Shown here piece after piece: positions 24,195 to 42,752 of a DNA stretch of 49,443 bases. The position numbers and the translations under genes were made by a program. How positions within the stretch are numbered: position 1 is the stretch's first letter; every line of letters starts with the position of its first letter. This stretch comes from a bacterium (GTDB lineage: Bacteria > Hydrothermota > Hydrothermia > LBFQ01 > DSFT01): assembly GCA_030550205.1 (NCBI GenBank), contig JAUQPS010000003.1, positions 1-49,443 on the forward strand, given 5' to 3'. The notes beneath the pieces are model-generated. The model ran no database searches. It was not told the origin of the DNA and saw only the letters and a program-made list of their open reading frames with translations.

Positions 24195-24671
24195 TTACAT
24201 TATTTTTCTATAACTCCTATGATAATAAATTAAAGGCTTCTTATCGTTTAACATCTGAACATTAACAACTTTACCAAAGAAAATAATATGATCCCCCATT
24301 TCTAAATGCCTATAATAAATGCATTCAATATAACCAATAGCATTTTCAATATATGGAATTTTAAGAGAAGCACTTTTAGGATATTCCAATTTAAATCTTT
24401 CAGCTTGGGAAATATCTTTATTTGAAAAGAATTTTGAAATTTCTTCTTGCTCTTCATTTAATAAGCTTATTGTCCATCCAATTGCTTTTAAAAATACATT
24501 TAAACTTTCTGCATTTTTATCTATGGAAATTAATGTAATTAAAGGTTTTAAAGATATACTTTCAAATGAGCTTATTGTTAAACCTGCTAATTTATTATCT
24601 GTGCTTTTACCAATTGCTATAAATACCGCTTGGGGAACATTTCTCATAAATTCTTTAAATTTTTCTCTCAT
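24195..24671 (-). CDS. flavin reductase-like domain protein
   Basis: A 158-residue single-domain FMN-binding split-barrel protein: AVFIAIGKSTDNKLAGLTISSFESISLKPLI (flavin/phosphate contacts) and the C-terminal HIIFFGKVVNVQ are typical of flavin reductase and rubredoxin/flavoredoxin-type proteins. Such proteins reduce FMN with NAD(P)H or bind it as an electron carrier; the partner is unknown. It starts with a 4-nt ATGA overlap with the TrmH-type gene and is followed after 1 nt by folC. Confidence 0.87.
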   Translation of the reverse strand: MREKFKEFMRNVPQAVFIAIGKSTDNKLAGLTISSFESISLKPLITLISIDKNAESLNVFLKAIGWTISLLNEEQEEISKFFSNKDISQAERFKLEYPKSASLKIPYIENAIGYIECIYYRHLEMGDHIIFFGKVVNVQMLNDKKPLIYYHRSYRKIM

Positions 24672-25393
24672 TTTATTTGAAATTTTAAGGTTAAAATATA
24701 CAATGCAATAGCAACTGCATTGGAAACATTATAAGAATTTACTTTAAAGTTATATTGTCTTAATGTTATAATTTTATCAGACATTTCAATTAATTTTTTC
24801 CTAATCCCATAATGCTCAGACCCTACAATAATTGCTAATTTTTCACTCTTTACATCCAATTCTTCTATTAATATTCCTCCCCTTTCAAGCGAATAAACAG
24901 GAATTTTATTCTCTTTTAAAATTTCAATAACTCGCTTTAAATTATCAGAATATGAAAAATTTATATAAAATATTGCTCCCGCAGATGCTTTTATAACACT
25001 TGGTGTAATTTTTGATGATTGAGTATAAGTAGAAACAATATTTTTAACATTTAAAACAAATGCACTTCTAATTATTGAACCTAAATTATAAGGGTCTTGA
25101 ATTCTATCAATTATTAAAAGAATTTTATTTTCACTATTTAAAAAATTTTCTAAATTTTCAGATAGTTTACAAACAGGTTCATTTATTAAATAAGCACAAA
25201 CTCCCTGATGATTATCATCACTTACTATTTGTTCAATTTTAAATTTACTTACAAGTTCATAGTTTATATTTTTGGCTTTACACATATTTAAAATTTTCTC
25301 CTTTTCCTTCAAATTCTCATATATTAATACTTTTTCAATACTTGCATTTGAATCTATTGCACAAATTACTGGATGCTTTCCATATATAACCAT
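24668..25393 (-). CDS. TrmH/SpoU-family RNA 2'-O-methyltransferase (RlmB-like)
   Basis: This 241-residue SPOUT methyltransferase has all three motifs: motif 1 DRIQDPYNLGSIIRSA (Asn103, Arg109), motif 2 IVGSEHYGI and motif 3 NSYNVSNAVAIALY, forming the knotted SAM site. The N-terminal YGKHPV start resembles the substrate-binding domain of RlmB, which modifies G2251 of 23S rRNA in E. coli; a tRNA-directed relative is possible. It is the first gene leftwards from the DnaA-box region, transcribed away from it, with a TAAAAT hexamer 10 nt before the ATG. Confidence 0.9.
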   Translation of the reverse strand: MVIYGKHPVICAIDSNASIEKVLIYENLKEKEKILNMCKAKNINYELVSKFKIEQIVSDDNHQGVCAYLINEPVCKLSENLENFLNSENKILLIIDRIQDPYNLGSIIRSAFVLNVKNIVSTYTQSSKITPSVIKASAGAIFYINFSYSDNLKRVIEILKENKIPVYSLERGGILIEELDVKSEKLAIIVGSEHYGIRKKLIEMSDKIITLRQYNFKVNSYNVSNAVAIALYILTLKFQIK

Positions 25394-25403
25394 AACTTTT
25401 AAA

Positions 25404-25409
25404 ATTTTA
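25404..25409 (-). promoter_or_regulatory. predicted -10 of the TrmH-folC operon
   Basis: Minus-strand TAAAAT, 10 nt before the ATG at 25393, at the left border of the DnaA-box region. Transcription runs away from the boxes. Confidence 0.45.
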
Positions 25410-25563
25410 AGGTTGTTTAAATCAAAAATTCGTTTTCCACAATATAAGTTATTGAAAATAAAAAAATTAATTTAGTTTTCCACATGTTTATAAGTCATTT
25501 TGTGGAAATGTTTAAAATCCCTTTTATTTATCAACAATAAATATCATTCAAAAATAAAAATTT

Positions 25564-25611
25564 AATAAACTTTTCCACATATAAAAAACAAAAACAATAA
25601 ACTTTTCCACA
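25564..25611 (+). repeat. 16-bp direct repeat carrying DnaA boxes
   Basis: AATAAACTTTTCCACA occurs identically at 25564-25579 and 25596-25611, 32 bp apart, so each DnaA box has the same AATAAAC prefix. The conserved prefix suggests selection beyond the 9-mer or a local duplication. Confidence 0.85.
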
Positions 25612-25787
25612 ATAAAAATTTATTATTAATCAAAAATTTAAAAATGTTTTCCACAATTTGTAAAAAAGTTTATGTTGAAAAATTAAAAATTTGACTTTTA
25701 AACATAGATTTCAACAATTTTTTCCACAATTTGATATTTAATTTTCAATAACTTAATAAAGTTTTCCACATATATATATTACTACTT

Positions 25788-25793
25788 TAAAAT
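25788..25793 (+). promoter_or_regulatory. predicted -10 of the lipoprotein gene
   Basis: TAAAAT lies 9 nt before the TTG start codon at 25803, at the right border of the DnaA-box region, 18 bp after the last box. Confidence 0.45.
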
Positions 25794-25802
25794 TTTCAAT
25801 AG

Positions 25803-26555
25803 TTGAAAAAGTTAATTTTAATAATTTTAATAGGAGTTGTTTCTTGCACAGATGCGGGACTTCCTGGAAGTCCAAGGATTTTAAAACTTGAAGCAATTTC
25901 AAATGGTGATAGTTTAAGAGTTTATTGGAGTTCCATTGAAGGTGCTGATTATTATAGAGTTTATGTTGATGATAAGATAATTTATGAAGGAAAAGATACA
26001 TTTTTAAATTTAGGTTATACTCAAAACTTTAAAGTTGAAACAATAGGATTAAGTGATAAATTAAGCACAGATTATAATTTAACTGATAAATTTTATATTG
26101 ATTCCCTATTTGTAATTCCCCAAATGGAGGTTCTTTCTTTTATATTTCCAAAATTTACAATTTATCCAATAAGTGATAGCTCAAAATATCAACAATTTGT
26201 TTTATTTTTTGCACAGGATTCATCAAAGATAAATGTTCCAGAATTTAATAAAGATTCTCTTAAAATTTTTTCAGCAAGTTTATATTTTAATAAATTAACA
26301 AGACATAAAATTGCTTATTATAATAATGAAAAAGTTATACCATTTCCTGATAAAGATACGTTAAATTTGATTTTTAAAAAGGATTATGTGCTTTGGTTTA
26401 ATCCTGACACAATAGGATGGGATGCTCAAAGGGATTATTTTATAAAATTTAGAATAGATACATTGATTTTTGAAGTTGATAGTTTAAATGATACAACTTA
26501 CCGATTAAAATTTAAGTATGATGTTAGAATAATTTCAGGTTTGAGATGGTTTTAA
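25803..26555 (+). CDS. lipoprotein with fibronectin type III-like domain
   Basis: The 250-residue product starts at TTG, as no upstream ATG is in frame and the TAAAAT hexamer 9 nt earlier matches the pattern of its neighbours. A lipoprotein signal (KKLILIILIGVVSC, Cys15) is followed by a stretch that looks like a fibronectin III fold (RVYWSSIEGADYYRVYVDD). The remainder is rich in Asp, Tyr and Phe and not recognised. It is exported and probably membrane-anchored. It overlaps the FtsL-like gene by 10 nt and heads a group with a cell-wall transpeptidase. Confidence 0.75.
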   Translation: MKKLILIILIGVVSCTDAGLPGSPRILKLEAISNGDSLRVYWSSIEGADYYRVYVDDKIIYEGKDTFLNLGYTQNFKVETIGLSDKLSTDYNLTDKFYIDSLFVIPQMEVLSFIFPKFTIYPISDSSKYQQFVLFFAQDSSKINVPEFNKDSLKIFSASLYFNKLTRHKIAYYNNEKVIPFPDKDTLNLIFKKDYVLWFNPDTIGWDAQRDYFIKFRIDTLIFEVDSLNDTTYRLKFKYDVRIISGLRWF

Positions 26556-26827
26556 AAAAATTAAGAATTCTCATTCTTATAATTATAATAGGAGTTTTAG
26601 GTATTTTGAATGTTTGGATAAATAATGTTATTTATTATAAAGCTAAATATATAGATGAGCTTAGGGATGAGAGGGACGTATGGTATATAAAGTATATGAA
26701 TGCTATAAGTGAATATTATAAGCGGAGATGGAATTATGAAGTTAAGGATAGTTTTAATTCTGGTATTCTTGATAGTTTGGTATCTGATAGCAATAGCAAA
26801 ATTATTCCACATTCAAATAATAGATAG
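26546..26827 (+). CDS. small bitopic membrane protein, FtsL-like by position
   Basis: A 93-residue protein with one N-terminal membrane helix (about residues 6-26) followed by a helical, charged segment (YIDELRDERDVWYIKYMNAISEYYKRR), directly before an FtsI-type transpeptidase. This size, topology and position are those of the divisome protein FtsL, but the sequence gives no family match I can name. Its 3' end overlaps the transpeptidase reading frame by 92 nt, which is long; the last 30 residues may be dispensable. A real gene is likely, the FtsL role is inference. Confidence 0.6.
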   Translation: MVLKKLRILILIIIIGVLGILNVWINNVIYYKAKYIDELRDERDVWYIKYMNAISEYYKRRWNYEVKDSFNSGILDSLVSDSNSKIIPHSNNR

Positions 26828-28295
26828 ACAATATAAACAAATTGCAAATAATTTATTTAAATTGAAAATTTCAAGATTTCCAAAAAGAGGAACTATTTAT
26901 GATAGAAATTTAAGACCAATTGCTTATAGTATTCCTGTTTTAGAGCTTTATCAATACTTAGATAATATTGTTGATTATTATGGGATTTTAAAATCTTTGA
27001 ATATATCGCCTGATACTTCAAAGAAATTTCCGAAATTATTATCAAAGGAAGTTCCAATAGAATATAGAAAGTTTATAATTTCACCAAAAGAAAGAGGTTT
27101 ATTTGCAATAAAGTATTATAAAAGGATTTATCCATTTTATGAAATTTCACAAAACATAATAGGTTTTGTTGTAGATACAATTGGTATGGAAGGGCTTGAA
27201 AAAGCGTTAGATATATTTTTAAGGGGAAAATCTGGTTATGAAGAAATTTTTCAAAGTGCTGATGGAAACAGGTTTTTATTACCTTATGGTAATAAAAATC
27301 AACCAATAAATGGTTTGGATGTAATTACAACCTTAGATATGAAAATTCAAGAAATTGCTTATAGATATTTAAAGGAAACGATATTACAAGAAAATGCAAA
27401 TTGGGGATTTGTAATTGTTTTAGACCCAAGGACTGGTGAAATTTTAGCTATGGCAAATTATCCAAATAGTTATAAAAATTATGCTATTCAGTTTATGTAT
27501 GAACCTGGTTCTACATTTAAAATTTTTACATTTGCAAAAGCACTTGAATTAAATTTAATAAGTGATAGTGATAGCGTTTATGTGGAAAAAGATGGGATTA
27601 TTATAGATGGATATAGGATTAAAAATGTTGAAAAAACACAAGGCTGGATAAGCTATAAGAAAGCTTTAAGTTATTCTATAAATTCAGTATTTTCTCAATT
27701 AGGTATAAAGATGGGAGGAATTCAATTATATGAAATAGCAAGAAGGGTGGGTTTCGGTATAAGAACGGATGTTTCTTTGAATGGTGAGACAAATGGTATA
27801 TTAAAAAGAAGATATAGAAATATAGATATTGCTAATTTTGCAATTGGACAGGGATTTTCTATAAATGGGCTTCAAATGGCTCTTGCTTATAGTTGTATAG
27901 CAAATGGTGGGTATTTAATAGCTCCAAAAATTGTTTTAAAGATAGGTGATAGTTTATATAATAAAACTTATACTGTAAGAAAGTGCTTTTCTGATAAAAT
28001 AGCTAATAAGTTAAAAGAACTTTTATTAGATGTTGTAGAGAATGGTTCTGGTAAGCTTGCAAAGGTAGAAGGGTTAAAAATTGCAGGAAAAACTGGAACT
28101 TCACAAAAATTTATAGATGGAAGTTATAGTGATGATAAAGTTATTACTTCTTTTATTGGATTTTTCCCAGTAGATAATCCAAGATATTTAATTTATGTAG
28201 TATTAGATGAACCAAAGAAAAATAAATTTGGCGGAACTTCTGCTGCTCCCTTATTTAGAAAAATTGCAAAGGAGATAATAAGCCTTAAAATTTGA
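26736..28295 (+). CDS. penicillin-binding protein transpeptidase (FtsI/PBP2 family)
   Basis: A class B penicillin-binding protein cross-linking septal or lateral peptidoglycan. One N-terminal membrane helix (IVLILVFLIVWYLIAIA), a dimerisation domain with PKRGTIYDRN, and the transpeptidase domain with the active-site Ser259-x2-Lys262 (STFK), SIN (314-316) and KTGT (452-455). I use the ATG at 26736 rather than 26709: GGAG lies 8 nt before it and the protein then begins with the short basic MKLR before the membrane helix; length is 519 residues. The preceding FtsL-like gene supports FtsI. No C-terminal PASTA domain. Confidence 0.93.
   Translation: MKLRIVLILVFLIVWYLIAIAKLFHIQIIDRQYKQIANNLFKLKISRFPKRGTIYDRNLRPIAYSIPVLELYQYLDNIVDYYGILKSLNISPDTSKKFPKLLSKEVPIEYRKFIISPKERGLFAIKYYKRIYPFYEISQNIIGFVVDTIGMEGLEKALDIFLRGKSGYEEIFQSADGNRFLLPYGNKNQPINGLDVITTLDMKIQEIAYRYLKETILQENANWGFVIVLDPRTGEILAMANYPNSYKNYAIQFMYEPGSTFKIFTFAKALELNLISDSDSVYVEKDGIIIDGYRIKNVEKTQGWISYKKALSYSINSVFSQLGIKMGGIQLYEIARRVGFGIRTDVSLNGETNGILKRRYRNIDIANFAIGQGFSINGLQMALAYSCIANGGYLIAPKIVLKIGDSLYNKTYTVRKCFSDKIANKLKELLLDVVENGSGKLAKVEGLKIAGKTGTSQKFIDGSYSDDKVITSFIGFFPVDNPRYLIYVVLDEPKKNKFGGTSAAPLFRKIAKEIISLKI
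28286..28291 (+). promoter_or_regulatory. possible -10 of the restriction-modification genes
   Basis: TAAAAT lies in the last codons of the transpeptidase gene, 10 nt before the methyltransferase ATG at 28302. It may give the restriction-modification pair its own transcript. Confidence 0.35.
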
Positions 28296-28301
28296 AAAAT
28301 T

Positions 28302-29138
28302 ATGAGACTTTTTCAGTTCGATACAAATTCAAGCAAAAGTAAAAAGGTAAGTAGAATTAATGATATTGACCTTACTAAATGGAAAGAATATAAGGAAATA
28401 ATTACTGATAGTTTGTGGATTTTTGATAGAAGAGATAATTCTGGTGCTCATCTTGGATGGTATTGGGGTAATTTTATTCCACAAATTCCACGCCAATTGA
28501 TGCTAAGATATACAAAAAGAGGTGATTGGGTATTGGACCCTTTTCTTGGAAGTGGTACAACGTTAATTGAATGTAGAAGATTAGGTAGAAATGGTATTGG
28601 AATTGAATTAAATCCAGATGTTGCACAAAAAGCAAAGCTATTAATTGAAAAAGAAGAAAATCAAGATAAAGTGATTACAGAAGTGATAATAGGAGATAGT
28701 AGAACATTAGATATAAAATCAATTTTGAATAACTACCAAATTAATAGAGTTCAGTTTATTATTATGCATCCACCATATCATGATATTATTAAATTTTCAA
28801 ATGATAAGCGAGATCTTTCTAATGCTAAAAATTTAGAAGAGTTTTTGAGGATGTTTGGTGAAGTTGTGGATAACGTTACCTTATACTTAGAAGATGGAAG
28901 ATATTTTGCTTTGGTTATTGGAGATAAGTATTCCAAAGGAGAATGGATACCTTTGGGTTTTTATTGTATGCAAGAAGTACTAAAAAGGGGATATAAGTTA
29001 AAGAGCATAGTTGTAAAGAATTTTGAGGAGACAAGAGGAAAGAAAAATCAAAGAGAACTTTGGAGATATAGGGCATTGGTAGGCGGTTTTTATGTATTTA
29101 AGCATGAATATATTATGTTATTTCAAAAAAGAAAATAA
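28302..29138 (+). CDS. type II DNA methyltransferase (N4/N6)
   Basis: The modification enzyme of a restriction-modification pair. SAM-binding motif I is DPFLGSGTT (79-87) and the catalytic motif IV is HPPY (156-159) in MHPPYHDIIKFSND, a known variant of DPPY/SPPY in which the first Asp is replaced. The order motif I then IV differs from the methylase at the window's left edge. At 278 residues it is compact. Whether cytosine-N4 or adenine-N6 is modified cannot be decided. The endonuclease-like gene follows after 9 nt. Confidence 0.9.
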   Translation: MRLFQFDTNSSKSKKVSRINDIDLTKWKEYKEIITDSLWIFDRRDNSGAHLGWYWGNFIPQIPRQLMLRYTKRGDWVLDPFLGSGTTLIECRRLGRNGIGIELNPDVAQKAKLLIEKEENQDKVITEVIIGDSRTLDIKSILNNYQINRVQFIIMHPPYHDIIKFSNDKRDLSNAKNLEEFLRMFGEVVDNVTLYLEDGRYFALVIGDKYSKGEWIPLGFYCMQEVLKRGYKLKSIVVKNFEETRGKKNQRELWRYRALVGGFYVFKHEYIMLFQKRK

Positions 29139-29147
29139 AGGTAAACT

Positions 29148-29981
29148 ATGGCTTTGTTGAGTGAAAAAGAAGTTTTAAATTTAAAACTTAATTCTATTCC
29201 TCTATCTCAATTAAAGGAGTTGGCTTCATATCTTGGTATATCTTACAGGGGAACAGCTGCTGATATTATTAAAAAGATAATAAAAGAAAAACCGAATCAA
29301 AAAAGTATTGATGAGTTCATTAAAAGAAAATATCAAGAAAAAATAGAAAATAGAAGAAAAATTATTTCTGATGAAGATTTGAAAAAAGAATTGATGAAAG
29401 TTAAAACATTTTCTTGGGGAGTAGTTCAGGGTCAATTAGATCAAAAGATACAAACTAATTATGTAAGAAAATTTTTTCGATATGAGGATCTATTAAATCA
29501 TATTAAATTAAATCTTTACAAAGAAATTACAAATTATGTTATTTGCACTTGGTTTAATCATTGGACCACAGTTTTAATAGAAGAATATGTAAACACTCAT
29601 CCCAAAGTGGTTCCAACTCTTAAAAATATAAAAGGTATTGATTTTTTCTTTTATAATCAACCTTTTGATTTAAAAGTTACTTATTTACCTCGTGGTTATG
29701 ATCCAATAAAGGCAATTGAGAATCCCTATGATTTAATTATTTGGTTATATGAAAATCAGGGTGCTCAAAGATTTGGAGCTGATAATCGCTTATTTATTGT
29801 TCTTCTTGATAAAAATAATCCTGAAAAAAGTTGGGAATTAAAAAGAGATTTTGATTTTGTATTTCAAAAAATTTACGAATTTTTCAATAAGGAAACGATT
29901 TCGGAAAAGGATGAAATAATTTTTACTTTTAAAAAGAAGACCTATTCAACAATAGCTAAAATATTATTAATAGTAAAATAA
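29148..29981 (+). CDS. predicted type II restriction endonuclease with N-terminal SAP-like domain
   Basis: The 277-residue protein starts with a helix-extension-helix like the SAP DNA-binding domain (IPLSQLKELASYLGISYRGTAADIIKKI, about residues 17-44), has a charged linker, and carries a PD-(D/E)xK-type core: Asp165 in KGIDFFF and Asp174-Leu-Lys176 in QPFDLKVTY. Position directly after a DNA methyltransferase makes a restriction endonuclease the best reading. AAAGGT lies shortly before the ATG. The recognition sequence is unknown. It ends 10 nt from the convergent CDGSH gene with no visible terminator. Confidence 0.78.
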   Translation: MALLSEKEVLNLKLNSIPLSQLKELASYLGISYRGTAADIIKKIIKEKPNQKSIDEFIKRKYQEKIENRRKIISDEDLKKELMKVKTFSWGVVQGQLDQKIQTNYVRKFFRYEDLLNHIKLNLYKEITNYVICTWFNHWTTVLIEEYVNTHPKVVPTLKNIKGIDFFFYNQPFDLKVTYLPRGYDPIKAIENPYDLIIWLYENQGAQRFGADNRLFIVLLDKNNPEKSWELKRDFDFVFQKIYEFFNKETISEKDEIIFTFKKKTYSTIAKILLIVK

Positions 29982-30845: not shown

Positions 30846-32758
30846 TCACTTTTTAGTATTTCAAGTGCTTCTTCTAATTTCTTAAATCCTAAATCTCCTT
30901 CCTTTCTTTTTCTTATTGAAACTCCTTCATTTTCAACTTCTTTCTTTCCAACTACAAAAACATATGGAATTTTATGTATTTCTGCATCTCTAATTTTATA
31001 TCCAACAGTTTCTTTTCTTTTATCAATTTCTACTCTAAATCCATTCTCCTTAAAGAAATTATAAACTTTTTGAGCATAATCAATAAATTTATCAGATATT
31101 GGAATTATAACAATTTGTATAGGTGAAAGCCATAGTGGAAATTCTCCTGCATAATGCTCAATTAAAATTCCCATAAATCTTTCAATTGAACCAAAAATAG
31201 CTCTATGTATAATTATTGGAGTTTTTTCTTTTCCATCTTTATCTACAAATGTTAAATTAAATCTTTTTGGTAAGTTAAAATCTAATTGAATTGTAGTGCA
31301 TTGCCACTTTCTATCTAAAACATCAAATAGATGGACATCTATTTTAGGGCCATAAAATGCTGCTTCTCCTTCTAAAATTTTATATTCCAAATTTAATTTT
31401 TCTAATGCTCTTTTTAAAGAATTTTGAGCATTTTCCCAATCTTCTATACTTCCCATATATTTACTAAAATTGTTTTTATCATAAACTGAAAGCCAAATTT
31501 CAAATTTTTTAAATCCAAATTTATTTAGAATCTCCTTCATTAAATCAAGAACTTCACTTACAACTTCTTCAACTTGATAAGGAGCACAAAATATATGACT
31601 ATCATCTTGGGTTATATTTCTTACTCTTAATAAACCATGTAGTGTTCCACTTCTTTCATATCTATAAACAGTAGCAACTTCAAATAATTTTAATGGTAAA
31701 TCTCTATAAGAGTATTTTTTTGATTTGTAAATTAAGATATGGGCAGGACAATTCATAGGTTTAACACCAAAAGATTCATTTTCTGTTTCCATAAGGAACA
31801 TATTTTCTTTATAATAATCTAAATGTCCTGAAATTTTCCAAATATCAGTCTTTAATACATGGGGAGTCCAAACAAGCTTATATCCTCTTTCTAAATGTTT
31901 TTGTTTTGAAAAATCTTCAAGAATTTTTCTTAAAATAGCACCTTTTGGATGAAAGAATACAAATCCACTTCCTGCTTCTTCATAAAAATCAAATAATTCA
32001 AGTTGTTTTCCTAAAACTCTATGATCTCTTTTTTTCGCTTCTTCCAATTTATTTAAAAATTCATTTAGCTCTTCTTTATTAGGAAATGATATACCATAAA
32101 TCCTTTGAAGTTGTGGATTTCTTTCATCTCCTTTAAAATAAGCGCCACTTACACTTAAAATTTTAAATGCTTTTACAAGTCCTGTTCTTGGAATATGGGG
32201 ACCTTTACATAAATCCACAAATTCTCCCTGAAAATAAACTGAAACTTTATCTTGATTAAACTCATCAATTAATATCACTTTATAATCCTCATTTTTACTC
32301 TTAAAGAATTCTTTTGCATAATTGCTATCCCATTCCTCCCTTCTTGTATAATAATTACTTTCAATAATTTTATAGCATTCCTCTTCAATTTTCTTTAAAT
32401 CATCTTCATTTAATGTTTTTCCATTAAAGTCAATGTCATAGAAAAATCCCTTTTCAATAGGTGGTCCTATTGTTAATTTTGAATTTGGAAATAATCGTTT
32501 TACCGCTTGAGCTAATATATGTGCAGATGAATGCCAAAAAACTTCTTTTCCTTCTTTACTATTAAAATCTAAAACTTCAATTTCTTCACCATCTTTTAAT
32601 ACTTCACCAACTTTTCTTGTTAAATCAAATAAAAATCCATCTTTCCTTTTTGCTACTAAATAATTATGAAATACTTCATCTATTTCAATTAAGCTCTTAT
32701 TTTCATCAATTTCAAAAATTTTTTCAGAGTTATCTGGGAATTTTATTTTAATTTTCAT
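30839..32758 (-). CDS. thrS: threonine--tRNA ligase
   Basis: A full-length (639-residue) class II synthetase. Domains in order: N-terminal TGS domain (about 1-60), editing domain with HSSAHILAQA (second-domain zinc-like His motif), catalytic core with GVKPMNCPAHILIY carrying the zinc Cys, motif 2 EVATVYRYERSGTLHGLLRVR and motif 3 GSIERFMGILIEHY, then the anticodon-binding domain (IQIVIIPISDKF...). All domains typical of bacterial ThrS are present. Its ATG overlaps the stop of OsmC copy 1 by 4 nt. Confidence 0.98.
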   Translation of the reverse strand: MKIKIKFPDNSEKIFEIDENKSLIEIDEVFHNYLVAKRKDGFLFDLTRKVGEVLKDGEEIEVLDFNSKEGKEVFWHSSAHILAQAVKRLFPNSKLTIGPPIEKGFFYDIDFNGKTLNEDDLKKIEEECYKIIESNYYTRREEWDSNYAKEFFKSKNEDYKVILIDEFNQDKVSVYFQGEFVDLCKGPHIPRTGLVKAFKILSVSGAYFKGDERNPQLQRIYGISFPNKEELNEFLNKLEEAKKRDHRVLGKQLELFDFYEEAGSGFVFFHPKGAILRKILEDFSKQKHLERGYKLVWTPHVLKTDIWKISGHLDYYKENMFLMETENESFGVKPMNCPAHILIYKSKKYSYRDLPLKLFEVATVYRYERSGTLHGLLRVRNITQDDSHIFCAPYQVEEVVSEVLDLMKEILNKFGFKKFEIWLSVYDKNNFSKYMGSIEDWENAQNSLKRALEKLNLEYKILEGEAAFYGPKIDVHLFDVLDRKWQCTTIQLDFNLPKRFNLTFVDKDGKEKTPIIIHRAIFGSIERFMGILIEHYAGEFPLWLSPIQIVIIPISDKFIDYAQKVYNFFKENGFRVEIDKRKETVGYKIRDAEIHKIPYVFVVGKKEVENEGVSIRKRKEGDLGFKKLEEALEILKSEC

Positions 32759-33267
32759 AGTTTTATTCTCGTTTCAAATGGAACTTGATTTTGAATTACA
32801 TAAGCAGCAGGACATTTTTTATTTGCTAATTTTCTAATCTCTTCAATAATTTCTTTATTAGCATTTGTTTCAATTTCAAGCTCAATTGTTATTTTTTCTA
32901 CTACTGGACTATCTTCAATATCAAAAACACTTTTCATATTAACATCTACATAACCTATTGCTTTTAGTTTTTTAATTTCAATACCCATTTGGCTTGCAAT
33001 TGTCATAAATGTAGTAGAATAACAACTTATCATACCAAAAGCGCATATTTGAACAGGATTTGGGGCATTACCATAACCTCCACTTATTGGGGGTTGATCT
33101 GTTGAAAGTTCTGTTATTCCATTTGGATATTCTATTTTCCCCATAAATTGAATTTTTTTATCAAATATCCATTCACCTTCTACAATAAATGACCTTTTTT
33201 CTGGTAGCTCATTATTTAAAATTTTTTCTCTTGTAATTTTAATTGATTCTATATTTACATTATTCAT
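32755..33267 (-). CDS. OsmC-family protein, copy 1
   Basis: A 170-residue OsmC/Ohr-fold protein. The family's two redox cysteines are represented by Cys82 (MISC) and Cys152 (KKCPAAY), with an additional Cys75 (QICAFGM). OsmC/Ohr proteins reduce organic hydroperoxides or act on polysulfide-like substrates, but the substrate here is not known. It is a close paralogue of 33869-34393, collinear without gaps over nearly the full length. The first gene of the thrS operon, with TAAAAT 9 nt before its ATG. Confidence 0.9.
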   Translation of the reverse strand: MNNVNIESIKITREKILNNELPEKRSFIVEGEWIFDKKIQFMGKIEYPNGITELSTDQPPISGGYGNAPNPVQICAFGMISCYSTTFMTIASQMGIEIKKLKAIGYVDVNMKSVFDIEDSPVVEKITIELEIETNANKEIIEEIRKLANKKCPAAYVIQNQVPFETRIKL

Positions 33268-33276
33268 AGTCTGAAA

Positions 33277-33282
33277 ATTTTA
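33277..33282 (-). promoter_or_regulatory. predicted -10 of the osmC1-thrS operon
   Basis: Minus-strand TAAAAT, 9 nt before the ATG at 33267. Confidence 0.5.
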
Positions 33283-33295
33283 AGGGAGGAATTTT

Positions 33296-33561
33296 TTATT
33301 GCTCCTCTTCAATATCCCTTAGGATTTTTTCAATCATAGGTTTAATTAGTGGTAACTCCTCTTTAATCACCTTCCAAACTATCATATGATTGATACCAAA
33401 ATATGAATGTACTATTTTATCTCTGAATCTTGCCATTTCTTTCCAAAGTACTTAGTAGCTTCTCCTATTATATGTATCTGCCATAATACTGCGCTTTTTA
33501 CTTTTTCATCAAATAAAAAATCTTCAAACTCCATTTTTTCAACAAAATTTTCCCTATTCAT
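33296..33561 (-). pseudogene. broken hepT (HEPN toxin of an MntA-HepT module)
   Basis: From an ATG that overlaps the mntA stop (ATGA, 33561), one frame reads FEDFLFDEKVKSAVLWQIHIIGEATKYF, the first part of a HepT/DUF86 HEPN protein, then hits a stop at 33412-33414. The second part, WKEMARFRDKIVHSYFGINHM...VIKEELPLIKPMIEKIL, lies in another frame and contains the complete HEPN active-site motif R-x4-H-x-Y (33401-33424). The switch is near 33440. Between GEATK and WKEMA about ten residues usual in HepT are missing, so this looks like a deletion with frameshift, not a simple sequencing slip. Confidence 0.75.
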
Positions 33562-33869
33562 ACATAAATTACTTCTTTTAGTATTTTTTCTTTTAACTCA
33601 GGTCTTATTCCTTCCTTTTCAATTAAGTCAACCTTTCTTTTTAAAAGCTTTTGAATATAAAGCTCCAACTCAATAAACTTGATAAGACCTGGTATTTCTT
33701 CATACTCTACCAATATATCAACATCACTTTTTTTATTTTGTTCTCCTCTTACAAAAGAACCAAAAACTCCAATTTCTTTTACCTTATATTTTTGCTTTAT
33801 TTCTTCTTTATGAATTTTTAATATCTCTATAATTTCTTGTAAAGAGCTTACTGATTTTTTTCTTGCCAT
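33558..33869 (-). CDS. MntA-type minimal nucleotidyltransferase (antitoxin)
   Basis: A 103-residue minimal nucleotidyltransferase with the motif G37-S38-x10-D49-x-D51 in GSFVRGEQNKKSDVDILVEY and a third acidic residue, Asp81 (KVDLI). In MntA-HepT modules this enzyme AMPylates the HEPN toxin's R-x4-H-x-Y tyrosine and so blocks its RNase activity. The cognate hepT follows with a 4-nt overlap but is broken. The start overlaps the stop of OsmC copy 2 by 1 nt (TAATG). The antitoxin itself looks intact. Confidence 0.9.
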   Translation of the reverse strand: MARKKSVSSLQEIIEILKIHKEEIKQKYKVKEIGVFGSFVRGEQNKKSDVDILVEYEEIPGLIKFIELELYIQKLLKRKVDLIEKEGIRPELKEKILKEVIYV

Positions 33870-34393
33870 TAGTATTCAGTTTTTATTTTCACTCTAAATG
33901 GAATAGGATTTTGTATAATATAGGCAGCAGGACACTTTTTATTTGATATTTCTTTTATTTTTTCAATTATTTCTTTATCAGCATCACTTTGAATTTCCAC
34001 TTCAAGATTTACTCCTTCAACTACTGCTGTATCTTCGATATTAAGAACGCTTTTTAAATTAACATCTACATAACCTTTTATTTTAAGTTTTTTAATTTTA
34101 ATACCCATTTCTGCTGCTACTGAAACAAATGTGTAAGCATAACAGCTTATCATACCGAAGGTGCATATTTGAACGGGATTGGGAGCATTTCCATGACCTC
34201 CCATTGCAGGGACATTATCCACAGGAATTTCAATTTCACCTTGTGGATATTCTATTTTACCTATAAATTGGACCTCCTTATCAAATACCCATTCACCTTC
34301 TACGATATAAGGTCTTTTCGCAGGCCACTCATTTCTTAAAATTTTCTCTCTGGTTTCTTTTATAGCTTCTACGTTTACATTATTGATTATCAT
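33869..34393 (-). CDS. OsmC-family protein, copy 2
   Basis: A 174-residue OsmC-fold paralogue of the gene at 32755-33267, offset by two residues at the start. Cys77, Cys84 (MISC) and Cys154 (KKCPAAY) coincide with the cysteines of copy 1; the blocks VEGEW, GNAPNPVQIC and KKCPAAY are identical. The mntA-hepT module lies between the copies, which suggests duplication with a later insertion, or a module that has jumped into an osmC pair. TAAAAT lies 9 nt before its ATG. Confidence 0.9.
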   Translation of the reverse strand: MIINNVNVEAIKETREKILRNEWPAKRPYIVEGEWVFDKEVQFIGKIEYPQGEIEIPVDNVPAMGGHGNAPNPVQICTFGMISCYAYTFVSVAAEMGIKIKKLKIKGYVDVNLKSVLNIEDTAVVEGVNLEVEIQSDADKEIIEKIKEISNKKCPAAYIIQNPIPFRVKIKTEY

Positions 34394-34608: not shown

Positions 34609-37600
34609 ATGATTTTCATTTTAAATTATTATGAATTTGAATTTTTATTTGAAATACCAAAAGCTTATAATCCAACCATATATAGCTATAAAATAGCGAT
34701 ACCTCCAAGTGGCTCATATGAAATTAGTTATGAAGTTCTTGAATATAGTAAGCTAAATGTAAAGGATGTTTTTAATGTTTCAAGTGATAATGTTTTTCAA
34801 GTAGAAAGAAAACAAGCTATTGATGTAGATTACATAGAGCTTAAAGTAAATCCATATTATTTAGTAGATAATCAGCTTTATGTGAGAAATAAAATCAAAT
34901 TTAAAATTAAATTCAATTACAATAATTTAAATAGCTTTGGAAATTATAATCCAAGTCATAGAGAATTTATAAATTTTCCATTTCCAAGAGAATGGATTAA
35001 AAAGAGAACCTTTTCAAATCCTCCTGATTTCTTTTCACAAGCTCAAATGTGGGTAAAGATAAAAATTAAAGAAAGGGGTATATATAAAATAACTGCCCAA
35101 GACTTAATTAACATCGGAATACCTCAAAATTTATTATCTATAAACAATTTAGCTTTATTTGCTAAAATTGATACTTTTAATAGTTCCTTAACTTATGCAG
35201 ATAGTTTAATAAAACAAGTTCCAATAATTGTTTATGATGAAAATTTAGATGGGATATTAAATGGCAATGATTATATTTTATTTTTTGGAGAGGGTATTGA
35301 AGGTTTTAGAAGTATAAATGGCTCTATAAAGTTTTATAGAAATCCATATGATTATTATAACTATTATATTTTAGGGATAGCTTCAAATTTACAACCAAAA
35401 TTTATGATTTCAAATAGTTTAAATTATAATCAATTAATATATTCAACAGGCATTTATAGACATGATACTGATTTAGTAAATACTGGTAAAAAGGGTAGAG
35501 TTTGGCTTGGTGAAGAAATAACTTCAACAATTAGCTTTGATTTTAATCTTGATGATATTGTTTCAAATAATGGAACACTTGAAATATCAATGGTGGGTTC
35601 AGAGCCTTTATCTGCAAATGAATGTGGAAATGCTAATTTACAAATTTTATTAAATGGTCAAGTAATTGATAATAATTTTCAAGTTATTCAAATTCAAAGA
35701 AATACAAAATCTTACAATGTATCAAATTTACAATCAATTAACAATTTAACAATAAACATTATTAGTGCAACTTGTCCTAATCCAAAAGTTTATTTAGACT
35801 ATTTTGAAATAAGATATAGTAGGAATATTCCAAATGATGGTAGTGTATATTTTAATACAACTGCTTCTGCCAAAATTACAAATAATGCTCTTATGGTTTT
35901 AAATATAACAAATCCATATTCACCAATTATTTTAAGTAATTTTTCAGATGATGTGGTGCCTGGTAGTATTTACTTTATAGCAAATGATTTTAAATCTCCA
36001 ATTTCTATTGAGTTTATGAATATAAGTGAAAATTTATATAAACTTTCTAATGTTGAATATATTATATTGGGTCCAAGGGATTGGAAAAATGCATTAAATG
36101 ATTATATGGATTTTAGAAAAAGATATTTTCCAATTGTTTGTGGTGTTGATTTTTGTATAGATTCAATAAATATTCACAATGTTAAATATGTTTCAATTGA
36201 GGATATATTTGAACAATTTGGATTTGGTATGAAAGATCCTGTTGCTATTAGAAATTTTCTTTATACTTTATATAGAAATTCTCCAAGTTTGCTTTATGGT
36301 TTAATAGTTGGAGATGCAACTTATGATTATAAGGATATTTTAAAAAGGGGTGGAAATTTCTTTCCTGTTTATTATGATTTTAATGAAAGTTTTGATATTA
36401 ATACATCATTTGCTGGTTCTTTTGATGATTTTTATTTTGATTTTTCAGGTGATAAATATGCGGATTTAAATTATGGGAGGTTTCCAGCAAGAGATAAATC
36501 TGAAATTGTAAATTACTTTAAAAAGGTTATAGATTATGAAATAAATAGATTTTTCTCGGATTGGAAAAATAGAGTTTTATTAACAGCAGATGATTTTAAA
36601 AATGGTAGTAGCACATGTGAAAGTAGTTGGCATTTAATTCCATCTAATCAAATTCAAAAATACTTTATTCCATCTAATGTTATAGTTCATCATGTTTATA
36701 TGCATGAGTATCCAGAGGAGGGTGGTAAAAAACCCATTGCAAATAAAGATTTTATAGATAAATTCAATAATGGTTATCTTTTAATAAATATATTTTCTCA
36801 TGGTAATCCTTCACAGGTTGCAAGTGAATTGTTATTTTCTTTGTTTGATGTTCCAAAATTAAATGCATATAATAAACCACCATTTGTTTTGATATTAAGT
36901 TGTAAGACAAATGTTTTTGATAGAATAGATGGTGATTTGGCTGGTCCAAAGGGGCTTGGTGAAGCTATAATTACCCATATTGGAGGTGCAATTGGTATTT
37001 TATCTTCAACCGCTCTTTCATTTGTAGGAGGTAATGTTGCTTATGCTCAACAAATTTTTAATGCTATAAAGTCAAATAAGCTTTATCCTATGGGTTATCT
37101 TTCAAGACTTGGTAAAAATAATTGGTATTATGTTTTATTTGGAGATCCAAGTGTTATGATTGGTTATCCAAGTGTTGATAATAATTTAAGTTTTCCTGAT
37201 AGTGCATTTGTGGGTTCTATTTATAAAGGTTCATTTTTAAATACAAATAATTATAGTGCAAGTGTTAGTTTATTGCCAATAGAAGTTCCTGTTACTGATG
37301 TAACTTGTAATCCACCACGAACTTTTAACATTTTAGAGCCACATTTAATTATATACAAATCATTTGTTAATAATGATTCTTTAAAGCTATATATACCAAA
37401 AGATTTAAGTCCAAATAGGAAATTACAATTGAGAGGTGTTTATAAATATGCTAATAAGTTTAAGGACTCTATAAGCATTGGTTTTAAGTCTGAACTAATT
37501 GAAATTGATACAATTGGTCCTAATTTAAAATTGCTTTATTATTCAAATGAAGTTAATGATAGCTCAAAATTTACTCCAAAAGCAAAATTTACATTTTGGG

Positions 37601-38127
37601 CAAGTGATGAGCATGGAATATATTTAAGTCCAGGTTATAGAGATGTTGAAGTTTATATAGATGATAGAGAAGTTATAAAATTAACAGATAGATTTATTTA
37701 TGATGTTAATAGTTATACTACGGGAATTGCAGATTTTGAAGTTGATTTTTCAAATAATCAAGGATGGCATAAATTAACATTGAGAGCATTTGACAACTAT
37801 AATAATTTCTCTTCAAAGGATTATTATCTTTATTTTTCGGACGAAAATTTAAACATTTCAGATTTTCTTATTTATCCAAATCCATATAAAACTGGTCCTT
37901 TATATTTAACATTTACTTCAAATAGTCAAGCCTTTGCCCAATTTAAAATTTATACAATAAATGGTGATTTGGTTTATATAAGTCCAAAGGTTGGCATTAA
38001 TGCTGGATTTAATAGTCTTAAATATGAAGGCAATAATCTTGGTAGTGGTATTTACATTGCATTATTAGAAATGACTAAGGACAAACAAAAAATTAAGTAT
38101 AAGAAGAAATTTGTAGTAGTAAAGTAG
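34609..38127 (+). CDS. gingipain-type C25 peptidase (PorU-like) with type IX-like C-terminal domain
   Basis: A 1172-residue protein with the caspase-like C25 catalytic domain in its middle: catalytic His731 in NIFSHGNPSQ and Cys765 in LILSCKTN, 34 residues apart, as in gingipains. Preceding repeats of beta-rich sequence fill the first 500 residues. The last 90 residues (from IYPNPYKTGPL to KKKFVVVK) match the FlgD-Ig/type IX secretion C-terminal sorting domain. PorU, the type IX sortase, has the same peptidase family. The predicted N-terminus (MIFILNYYEFEFLFEIPKAY) is not a clear signal peptide, so the real start may differ or export uses another route. No Shine-Dalgarno sequence. Confidence 0.85.
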   Translation: MIFILNYYEFEFLFEIPKAYNPTIYSYKIAIPPSGSYEISYEVLEYSKLNVKDVFNVSSDNVFQVERKQAIDVDYIELKVNPYYLVDNQLYVRNKIKFKIKFNYNNLNSFGNYNPSHREFINFPFPREWIKKRTFSNPPDFFSQAQMWVKIKIKERGIYKITAQDLINIGIPQNLLSINNLALFAKIDTFNSSLTYADSLIKQVPIIVYDENLDGILNGNDYILFFGEGIEGFRSINGSIKFYRNPYDYYNYYILGIASNLQPKFMISNSLNYNQLIYSTGIYRHDTDLVNTGKKGRVWLGEEITSTISFDFNLDDIVSNNGTLEISMVGSEPLSANECGNANLQILLNGQVIDNNFQVIQIQRNTKSYNVSNLQSINNLTINIISATCPNPKVYLDYFEIRYSRNIPNDGSVYFNTTASAKITNNALMVLNITNPYSPIILSNFSDDVVPGSIYFIANDFKSPISIEFMNISENLYKLSNVEYIILGPRDWKNALNDYMDFRKRYFPIVCGVDFCIDSINIHNVKYVSIEDIFEQFGFGMKDPVAIRNFLYTLYRNSPSLLYGLIVGDATYDYKDILKRGGNFFPVYYDFNESFDINTSFAGSFDDFYFDFSGDKYADLNYGRFPARDKSEIVNYFKKVIDYEINRFFSDWKNRVLLTADDFKNGSSTCESSWHLIPSNQIQKYFIPSNVIVHHVYMHEYPEEGGKKPIANKDFIDKFNNGYLLINIFSHGNPSQVASELLFSLFDVPKLNAYNKPPFVLILSCKTNVFDRIDGDLAGPKGLGEAIITHIGGAIGILSSTALSFVGGNVAYAQQIFNAIKSNKLYPMGYLSRLGKNNWYYVLFGDPSVMIGYPSVDNNLSFPDSAFVGSIYKGSFLNTNNYSASVSLLPIEVPVTDVTCNPPRTFNILEPHLIIYKSFVNNDSLKLYIPKDLSPNRKLQLRGVYKYANKFKDSISIGFKSELIEIDTIGPNLKLLYYSNEVNDSSKFTPKAKFTFWASDEHGIYLSPGYRDVEVYIDDREVIKLTDRFIYDVNSYTTGIADFEVDFSNNQGWHKLTLRAFDNYNNFSSKDYYLYFSDENLNISDFLIYPNPYKTGPLYLTFTSNSQAFAQFKIYTINGDLVYISPKVGINAGFNSLKYEGNNLGSGIYIALLEMTKDKQKIKYKKKFVVVK

Positions 38128-40060: not shown

Positions 40061-41146
40061 TTGAAAAAAATTCTCATTTTATCTGCTAATTATGGAACAG
40101 GTCATTTAATTGCTGCTAAGGCAATAAAGCAATTACTTGAAGAAGAAAATGAAGTAGAAATTATTGATATAGTAGAGGAAGGCTATTTTCTTGAAAAAAT
40201 TAGCTCAAAAGCTTATATTTGGTTAAATCGTCATTCTCATTTATTATGGAGATTTATTTATTATAACCCTATAAGCAAAAGTAAAATTTTAAGAGTTTTA
40301 TCCAAAAAGTTAATAAGAGACAATATTTATAAAAAAATAAAAAGCTATAAGCCAGATATTATTATTTCAACTCACTTTTATGCTACTGTATATGGTATTA
40401 AATATAAGGCAGAATATCCAAAAACAAAGTTGTTTGTTTGTATTACGGATTATGAGGTTCATCCATTTTGGATATATAATGAAGTTGATCTATATTTTTT
40501 GCCTTCGCATTTTTCATTACAAAATTTTAAATTGACAAATTATGTTATAACAGGTATTCCATTAAGAAGGAACTTTTGGCAAGAATTAAATAAATATGAA
40601 ATAAGAAAAAAACTTAAAATTGAGACAAATAATTTAGTAGTTTTATTAAACCTTGGTTCTCATAGTGTTCTTCCATTAAAAGATGCTATCAAATATATTA
40701 ATTTATTTAAAGACAAGTTATATTTCCTAATAATAGGTGGCAAAGATAAAGTGAGATATGAAAAAATCCAAAATGCATTAAATCAAATAGGTGCATATTA
40801 TAAGTTATATAGCTTTACAGAAGATATTCATGAGCTTATGTTCGCTTGTGATTTTTCTATTACAAAGGCAGGAGGATTAAGTTTATCAGAGTTAATTTAT
40901 ACAAAAAGACCCGCTATTTATTATAAAAGCTTGCCGGGTCAAGAAGAAGGTAATGAGAAGTTTATAAGAGAATATGGTTTAGGTTTTACTGCGAAAAATT
41001 TTTCTCAGCTTTTAAAGTTTACGAACCTCATAATTGAAAATCCTTCTATTTTAGACTATTTCCAATCCAATTTATCATTTCAAAAAGAAAATATGAACTT
41101 TTTCAGAATTAGGCAAATTGTTTCACATGAAACATATGCTTTATAA
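40061..41146 (+). CDS. GT28-type glycosyltransferase (MGDG synthase / UgtP-like)
   Basis: About 361 residues with LILSANYGTGHLIAAKAI at the start (MGDG-synthase N-domain), ICITDYEVHPFW in the middle and a GT-B C-domain containing ITKAGGLSLSELIYTKRPAI. Homologues add glucose or galactose to diacylglycerol to make membrane glycolipids. I place the start at TTG 40061, not at an ATG at 40022 that lies in the tRNA anticodon loop and would translate tRNA sequence. The mRNA would then start 2 nt before the codon after tRNA 3' processing. The 3' end contains the parS-like site. Confidence 0.87.
   Translation: MKKILILSANYGTGHLIAAKAIKQLLEEENEVEIIDIVEEGYFLEKISSKAYIWLNRHSHLLWRFIYYNPISKSKILRVLSKKLIRDNIYKKIKSYKPDIIISTHFYATVYGIKYKAEYPKTKLFVCITDYEVHPFWIYNEVDLYFLPSHFSLQNFKLTNYVITGIPLRRNFWQELNKYEIRKKLKIETNNLVVLLNLGSHSVLPLKDAIKYINLFKDKLYFLIIGGKDKVRYEKIQNALNQIGAYYKLYSFTEDIHELMFACDFSITKAGGLSLSELIYTKRPAIYYKSLPGQEEGNEKFIREYGLGFTAKNFSQLLKFTNLIIENPSILDYFQSNLSFQKENMNFFRIRQIVSHETYAL
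41119..41134. promoter_or_regulatory. parS-like ParB-binding site
   Basis: TGTTTCACATGAAACA differs from the consensus parS TGTTTCACGTGAAACA at one central base. It lies 20 bp upstream of the parA start, within codons of the glycosyltransferase gene (IVSHETYAL) and between the -35-like TTGTTT (41118) and -10 TATAAT (41142) of parA, so ParB bound here could also repress its own operon. Confidence 0.85.
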
Positions 41147-41154: not shown

Positions 41155-41931
41155 ATGACAAAAATTGCTGTTGTTAATCAAAAGGGTGGGGTAGGGAAAA
41201 CCACAACGGTTGTAAATTTATCTACTGCTCTTGCACTTGAGAATTTAAGAGTTTTAGTTGTAGATGGTGATGCTCAAGCGAATGCTTCAAGTGGTTTTGG
41301 CATAAATAGAAGAAATGGTAAAAATTTATATCATTTACTTATTGGGAAAGCGAATATTGATGAAGTTCTTGTTAGAGTTGAATCTGCTAATTTAGATTTA
41401 ATTCCTTCTTCACCAGATTTAATAGGGGTAGATACAGAGCTTAGAGGGAAACCCAATTGGGAATTAGCATTAAAGAATCTACTTGATAATATATCTTCAA
41501 ATTATGAATTTATATTTATTGATGCTCCACCATCTCTTGGAACACTAACTGTTTTAATTTTATCTGCTGCTGAATATATTTTAATTCCTGTTCAAGCAGA
41601 ATATTATGCACTTGAAGGTGTTGCTCAACTTCTTGAAACTGTTCATTATGTAAGAAGAACGATAAATCCTAAATTAAAATTAATGGGCTTTTTAATAACG
41701 ATGTATGATAAACGCACAAAATTATCTGAACAAGTTGAAGAGCAAATAAGGGGGATATTTAAAGAGATGGTTTTTAGTAATGTAATACCAAGAAGTGTTA
41801 GATTAGCGGAAGCACCAAGTTATGGAATTCCTGGTGTATTATTTGACCCCTTATCAGTAGGAGCTATTGCTTATAGGAACTTAGCAAAGGAGATTTTAGA
41901 AAAATTTGTTAAAAGGGAGGCGAATGTATGA
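41155..41931 (+). CDS. parA: chromosome partitioning ATPase ParA (Soj)
   Basis: A 258-residue deviant-Walker-A ATPase: KGGVGKTTT (10-18, signature Lys10 and P-loop Lys15), VDGDAQANAS, and Walker B FIFIDAPPSLG. ParA pairs with ParB to segregate the origin region in the cell. The length and absence of an N-terminal DNA-binding domain match chromosomal Soj-type ParA. It is preceded by a parS-like site and TATAAT in 40 nt and overlaps parB by 4 nt (ATGA). Confidence 0.97.
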   Translation: MTKIAVVNQKGGVGKTTTVVNLSTALALENLRVLVVDGDAQANASSGFGINRRNGKNLYHLLIGKANIDEVLVRVESANLDLIPSSPDLIGVDTELRGKPNWELALKNLLDNISSNYEFIFIDAPPSLGTLTVLILSAAEYILIPVQAEYYALEGVAQLLETVHYVRRTINPKLKLMGFLITMYDKRTKLSEQVEEQIRGIFKEMVFSNVIPRSVRLAEAPSYGIPGVLFDPLSVGAIAYRNLAKEILEKFVKREANV

Positions 41932-42752
41932 ACAAGAAGGCGAGAGGTTTGGGAAGAGGGCTGGCAGCAATTTTGCCAGGAAGTGAATCTTTGGAAGATT
42001 TACAATTAATAGATATAAATGCAATTGAGCCAAATCCATATCAACCAAGAAGAAAATTCTCTGAAAAAGAATTGAAGGAGCTTGCAGAATCAATAAAGGC
42101 TAATGGACTTTTACAACCTATTATTGTAAGACAAATATCCGAAGATAGATATCAGATTGTGGCAGGAGAAAGGAGATGGAGAGCTTGTAGAATTGCAGGT
42201 TTAACAAAGATCCCAGCTATTGTTAAAGATTTAGAAGATTCTGAGATGCTTCAACTTGCTCTTATTGAAAATTTACAAAGAGAAGACTTGAATCCTGTTG
42301 AAGAAGCTTTAGCATATAAGCAGTTAATTGAAAAATTTGGATTTACACAATCTGAAATAGCTCAAATTGTAGGAAAAGATAGAGCAACTATTACTAATAC
42401 TTTAAGACTATTAAATTTGAGTGAAAAGGTTTTAGAAATGCTAAGAGATGGTAAAATTACAGAAGGACATGCAAGAGTATTGCTTAGAATAAGTGATTTT
42501 AATGAGCAAGAGGAATGGGCAAGAAGGATTGTTGAAGAGGGGATTAGTGTAAGACAACTTGAAAAATTGATATCTCCAAAAGAATCTAAAATGGAAAATG
42601 ATAATTCTTGGATAAGGGAAATAAGTGAAAAATTATTTAAGAATGTTGGGCTTAAAGCAGAAATTAAAACTACAAAGAGAAGAGTAAGAGTAGTATTGGA
42701 TTTTAAAAATAAGGAAGAATTTGAAAACTTTTTAAGGAAACTTGGATTATGA
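41928..42752 (+). CDS. parB: chromosome partitioning protein ParB (Spo0J)
   Basis: A 274-residue ParB: N-terminal KKARGLGRGLAAILPG, the NPYQPRRKF motif, the CTPase motif GERRWRACR, a helix-turn-helix (FTQSEIAQIVGKDRATITNTL) with EGHARVLL, and a C-terminal dimerisation domain. GGGAGG ends 7 nt before the ATG, which overlaps the parA stop. ParB loads at parS sites and spreads as a CTP-dependent clamp. The adjacent parS-like site supports a chromosomal system near the origin. Confidence 0.97.
   Translation: MNKKARGLGRGLAAILPGSESLEDLQLIDINAIEPNPYQPRRKFSEKELKELAESIKANGLLQPIIVRQISEDRYQIVAGERRWRACRIAGLTKIPAIVKDLEDSEMLQLALIENLQREDLNPVEEALAYKQLIEKFGFTQSEIAQIVGKDRATITNTLRLLNLSEKVLEMLRDGKITEGHARVLLRISDFNEQEEWARRIVEEGISVRQLEKLISPKESKMENDNSWIREISEKLFKNVGLKAEIKTTKRRVRVVLDFKNKEEFENFLRKLGL

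Follow-up and report, generated by a model that had tools for sequence, protein, structure and literature searches.

The question raised by this locus is where chromosome replication starts in a WOR-3 bacterium (phylum now named Caldifarciminota by NCBI), and in particular whether a 409-bp gap between two divergent genes serves as the replication origin (oriC) at a distance from the initiator gene dnaA. The window, meaning the whole stretch of DNA that was analyzed (49,443 bp), is contig C118 of the organism's own genome (G000), which is divided into 210 contigs. A first-pass annotation had proposed the gap as a candidate oriC separate from dnaA. This proposal is supported by a switch in replication-strand skew, by conserved site spacing and by the absence of a denser box cluster from the dnaA contig and from the 1.28 Mb read of a same-genus genome, and sequence comparison indicates that the gap is very probably the chromosomal oriC of this bacterium.

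A second array was found in G001, the metagenome-assembled genome of the same-genus WOR-3 isolate SKYB27, where it lies on contig C66 (JANXBH010000006, 85,436 bp). This genome was read over 1.28 Mb, with small contigs reading as N left out; the matches found when contig-end overlaps were sought for ordering its contigs were N-only contigs. The features of the gap, with their G001 counterparts, and the genes around it are as follows.

24668–25393, minus strand: SpoU/RlmB-type rRNA 2'-O-methyltransferase gene (rlmB), left flank, transcribed away from the gap; the orthologue at the G001 array is 62% identical
25394–25802, no strand: candidate oriC with DnaA-box array, a 409-bp gap between divergent genes, 17% GC
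25433–25441, plus strand: DnaA box TTTTCCACA; G001 counterpart TTTTGAACA
25476–25484, plus strand: DnaA box TTTTCCACA; G001 counterpart identical
25501–25509, minus strand: weaker box ATTTCCACA; G001 ATTTTCACA; 25 bp past the preceding box in both species
25528–25536, plus strand: weak site TTATCAACA; G001 TTCTCAACA, at equal spacing
25571–25579, plus strand: DnaA box TTTTCCACA; G001 ATCTCAACA, degenerate in that species
25603–25611, plus strand: DnaA box TTTTCCACA; G001 TTTTACACA, paired by spacing
25647–25655, plus strand: DnaA box TTTTCCACA; G001 TTTTACACA
25673–25681, minus strand: weak reverse site TTTTCAACA; G001 TTGTCAACA; 26 bp past the preceding box in both species
25696–25704, plus strand: weak site TTTTAAACA; G001 ATTTCAACA
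25720–25728, plus strand: DnaA box TTTTCCACA; G001 ATTTCCACA
25762–25770, plus strand: DnaA box TTTTCCACA; G001 TTTTACACA; followed by TATAT and ATATTACTACTT
25803–26555, plus strand: lipoprotein-like gene without a Pfam match, right flank, transcribed away from the gap; 63% identical in G001
26709–28295, plus strand: FtsI-type penicillin-binding protein gene, linked to the array in both species

All seven exact copies of TTTTCCACA and both near matches reported at first reading were recovered, with the exact copies all on the plus strand and the near matches corresponding to ATTTCCACA (25501, minus) and TTTTCAACA (25673, minus). The flanking genes do point away from the gap, rlmB on the minus strand and the lipoprotein gene on the plus strand, and a short FtsL-like gene lies between the latter and the FtsI-type gene. 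The description of the gap as the only long intergenic region needs qualification: it is the longest true inter-ORF gap of the window (a 537-bp entry of the gap listing is the nadD ORF and no true gap), and other gaps of 190–290 bp exist. Its GC content is 17%, compared with 26.7% for the window, yet a duplex-stability scan found less stable DNA elsewhere in the window, and no unwinding element stands out clearly.

The DnaA boxes of the array are clustered beyond chance, as is expected of an oriC. Simulated 409-bp sequences (first-order Markov, n=3000) contained a mean of 0.02 and a maximum of 2 copies of TTTTCCACA, and no other 409-bp stretch of the window, sampled in 20-bp steps, equaled the array in 9-mer repetition. 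The genome-wide count called for by the first-pass annotation came to 33 copies in 1.89 Mb, with 7 of the 33 inside the gap. Since the reversed pattern, used as a control, occurs 48 times in the same genome, it is the clustering of TTTTCCACA that is over-represented and not the word itself. Adjacent TTTTCCACA boxes are 32–95 bp apart, and the seven are helically phased at a period of 10.6 bp (R=0.94, p=0.004, period scanned). After the last box (25762), TATAT and ATATTACTACTT form a run resembling the DnaA-trio (BUS) motif as defined in PMC8287927; the resemblance is weak and confined to G000, with none in G001. Rfam gave no match in the region of the array.

The orthologous gap of G001 is 416 bp long and has the same flanking genes, with proteins 62–63% identical; its sites include TTTTCCACA, three copies of TTTTACACA, and ATTTCCACA. 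Relative to the start of rlmB, the G000 sites lie at 40, 83, 108 (minus), 135, 178, 210, 254, 280 (minus), 303, 327 and 369, and the facing sites in G001 at 22, 65, 90 (minus), 117, 160 (read off the alignment), 193, 237, 263 (minus), 287, 311 and 353. A spacing test covered those sites in G001 that depart from TTWTNCACA by at most one base: after one shift, 7/7 fell within 1 bp of a same-strand G000 site, a result matched by 0/3000 random placements. Identity between the two species is 85% inside the sites versus 52% outside, a difference that 1 in 408 slid masks reached or surpassed. Most substitutions in the strong boxes of G001 affect position 5, where TTWTNCACA has its free base (N), and three strong G000 boxes have become TTTTACACA through a C-to-A change there. 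The boxes are conserved across two species, as expected if the boxes of an oriC are under selection, and the orthologous array is the densest box cluster in the 1.28 Mb of G001. This conservation of site spacing, which had not been predicted, is the strongest support for the oriC reading. It rests on two species because no array adjoins rlmB or ftsI in G002 and G003, which represent the sister genus, and the new location of the array is accordingly documented for this genus only.

As noted at first reading, neither dnaA nor dnaN lies in the window: in G000, dnaA is on contig C190 and dnaN on C78. The denser cluster near dnaA that had been named as contrary evidence is absent, contig C190 (8.8 kb) being devoid of TTWTNCACA. 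In G001, dnaA (C55, 15 kb) and dnaN (C55, 49.5 kb) are 34 kb apart on a contig that is one-sided in skew, and no full-consensus box lies beside either gene. The array adjoins neither dnaA nor dnaN, as an oriC of the dnaA-dnaN type would. The DnaA protein of G000 is complete, with domains I, III and IV, and alignment with Bacillus subtilis DnaA shows that domain IV keeps the R...RDH(S/T)T residues; the genome therefore encodes a full initiator with a box-reading domain, as an oriC presupposes. Boxes with the sequence TTTTCCACA or TTATCCACA are absent from the surroundings of dnaA in G000, G001 and G003 but border the gene in relatives from several other families. The latter finding backs TTTTCCACA as the class's DnaA box and suggests a move of the origin, which in the ancestor probably lay beside dnaA and was displaced in this lineage.

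Origin-segregation genes are also found in the window.

41119–41134, no strand: parS-like site TGTTTCACATGAAACA, the genome's only one at the stringency used, 15 kb from the array
41155–42752, plus strand: parA and parB, origin-segregation genes, 15–17 kb right of the array

PMC7022226 and PMC9140986 describe parS sites as usually lying near oriC. The same side of the array carries several other genes of note. At 28302–29981, neither a DNA methylase gene nor its downstream neighbor of unassigned function has a match in G001, and the two may represent a restriction-modification pair that was inserted near the origin. A minimal nucleotidyltransferase gene (33558–33869) sits between two paralogous small proteins (32755–34393), both of which match one single place in G001. 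Further along, at 34609–38127, a gingipain-type peptidase C25 protein of 1172 aa has a C-terminal stretch that resembles a type IX secretion sorting domain.

Strand asymmetry was read contig by contig, as 210 contigs preclude a whole-chromosome curve. Because skew follows gene direction here, third-position GC skew (GC3) was modelled together with gene strand. Uncorrected, the cumulative skew of the window reaches its minimum at 34.5 kb (-681), marginally lower than its value at 25 kb (-631), a displacement attributable to the dependence of skew on gene strand; once gene strand is corrected for, the best divergent switch in the window coincides with the array, at 25.6 kb. The gain from this switch was unmatched by 275 control positions in other G001 contigs (±24 kb test). 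On contig C66 of G001, the raw cumulative minimum lies at 52.5 kb, within the array (52.3–52.6 kb), and the best divergent strand-corrected switch at 50.9 kb; this contig also has the least overall strand preference among the G001 contigs (R 0.014). At the G001 array, the strand-corrected switch is of modest size (R 0.061, fixed-position p=0.005), and over ±24 kb it did not outperform a no-switch model. The replication-strand switch expected at an oriC is thus clear in the window and moderate in G001. Elsewhere in G001, contig C11 is weakly biased overall (R -0.035) and has a convergent strand-corrected switch at about 50 kb, which makes it a candidate replication terminus.

These results bear on the alternative that the array binds DnaA without initiating replication, either as a titration or modulating cluster of the datA or DARS type or as a DnaA-controlled promoter region of ftsL-ftsI or rlmB. 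The array does lie between two divergent promoters and adjoins cell-division genes, and boxes alone are no proof of origin activity. However, its position is that of the skew switch in the window and, in G001, of the raw skew minimum; no alternative origin cluster exists in the 1.28 Mb of G001 that was read, and none lies at dnaA. We regard this explanation as improbable.

Some doubt about the array as oriC arises because an end of another G001 contig, C44, also has a skew switch. Its raw minimum is at 91 kb and its strong strand-corrected divergent switch at 88.4 kb, 9–11 kb from parAB, and this switch looks stronger than that at the G001 array. The true origin might accordingly be elsewhere, for example near parAB at 88–91 kb of C44, with the array as a secondary or former origin. 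Against this, the interval from 84 to 95 kb of C44 contains no TTWTNCACA, and few genes lie beyond the switch. Since tpr-nadD in this region of C44 (88–100 kb) is inverted relative to parAB in comparison with the window, the switch is read as a local inversion, probably a recent one near the origin. An origin at such a site is judged quite improbable.

Another possibility is that the boxes form an MraZ-type operator, with TTTTCCAC-like direct repeats controlling a division gene cluster. In several class relatives TTTTCCACA occurs upstream of mraZ/mraW, with 12-bp repeats in two families, and ftsI lies downstream of the array here. Yet the array spacings are 32–95 bp and not about 12; it does not present direct repeats some 10–12 bp apart upstream of mraZ, and no mraZ was found among the flanking genes identified. 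In G001, mraW is on another contig and has no boxes. Moreover, the change from CCACA to ACACA in G001 spares the DnaA consensus and would break a putative CCAC core of an MraZ operator. This reading is considered very improbable for the array. In the relatives, the TTTTCCACA copies upstream of mraZ/mraW span several families (loci L154, L151, L160, L161, L158, L159 and L112), with 12-bp spacing in f3, and a similar 12-bp triple is found at a contig end in f11 (G038). These copies may serve as operators for MraZ or as sites through which DnaA regulates division genes; the notion that the mraZ/mraW-adjacent clusters are themselves moved origins was set aside, operators being more likely. Across 60 relatives, box clusters other than the orthologous array have at most three boxes each. 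Finally, a plasmid iteron origin was rejected, as the sampled window and flanking genes are of chromosomal housekeeping types, with no rep gene and no plasmid match.

If the gap is the chromosomal oriC, initiation might proceed as follows. ATP-DnaA produced from the distant dnaA gene would bind the strong boxes on one face of the helix and would then spread across the weaker sites as a directional filament. Melting by this filament would take place in the extremely A+T-rich DNA of the array or next to it, and helicases would be loaded for two forks, the leftward one co-directional with rlmB and the rightward one with ftsL-ftsI. A more specific proposal, tentative and rather doubtful as a whole, is that the origin relocated from dnaA to the rlmB/ftsL-ftsI site as a rigid, one-direction, phased track for a DnaA filament, in which weak sites alternate with the strong ones at constant intervals and the duplex opens within the array instead of in a separate element.

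Compared with known systems, the array resembles oriC regions of the Ori-Finder/DoriC class in its cluster of 9-bp DnaA boxes that differ from TTATCCACA at two positions at most, its A+T-rich intergenic gap, its skew switch and the ParABS system nearby. It differs from them in its distance from dnaA and dnaN, in its neighbors (rlmB on one side, a lipoprotein-ftsL-ftsI cluster on the other) and in having its seven strong boxes all in one orientation. The oriC of Escherichia coli (gidA-mioC) likewise lies away from dnaA and has weaker sites between its strong boxes; its box set and spacing are different, however, and no sequence relation was seen. Other WOR-3 families (for example G018, G026 and G028) share the 9-mers TTTTCCACA and TTATCCACA, but there the boxes are at dnaA, whereas here they are at rlmB-ftsI. 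TTTTCCACA is also listed as the species-specific DnaA box of Cyanobacteria, in which an origin apart from dnaA accompanies this preferred box (PMC10225481, PMC2275245). In contrast to the present array, the cyanobacterial origin is beside dnaN in Synechococcus, and it belongs to an unrelated phylum, with no sign of common descent of the site. An origin away from dnaA is of a known kind, since among 568 chromosomes only 342 combined an oriC next to dnaA with proximity to the skew switch (PMC2275245).

No paper joining WOR-3 with a replication origin and a DnaA box was found in the library searched. The interest of this probable oriC is in its occurrence in a candidate phylum, its relocation and its fixed site spacing, origins away from dnaA being already known. 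It would offer a precise, testable origin and an initiator binding word for an uncultured candidate phylum, and a known origin would enable growth-rate estimates for these bacteria from metagenome coverage. A relocated origin with an unchanged box sequence would also bear on how replication origins change position.
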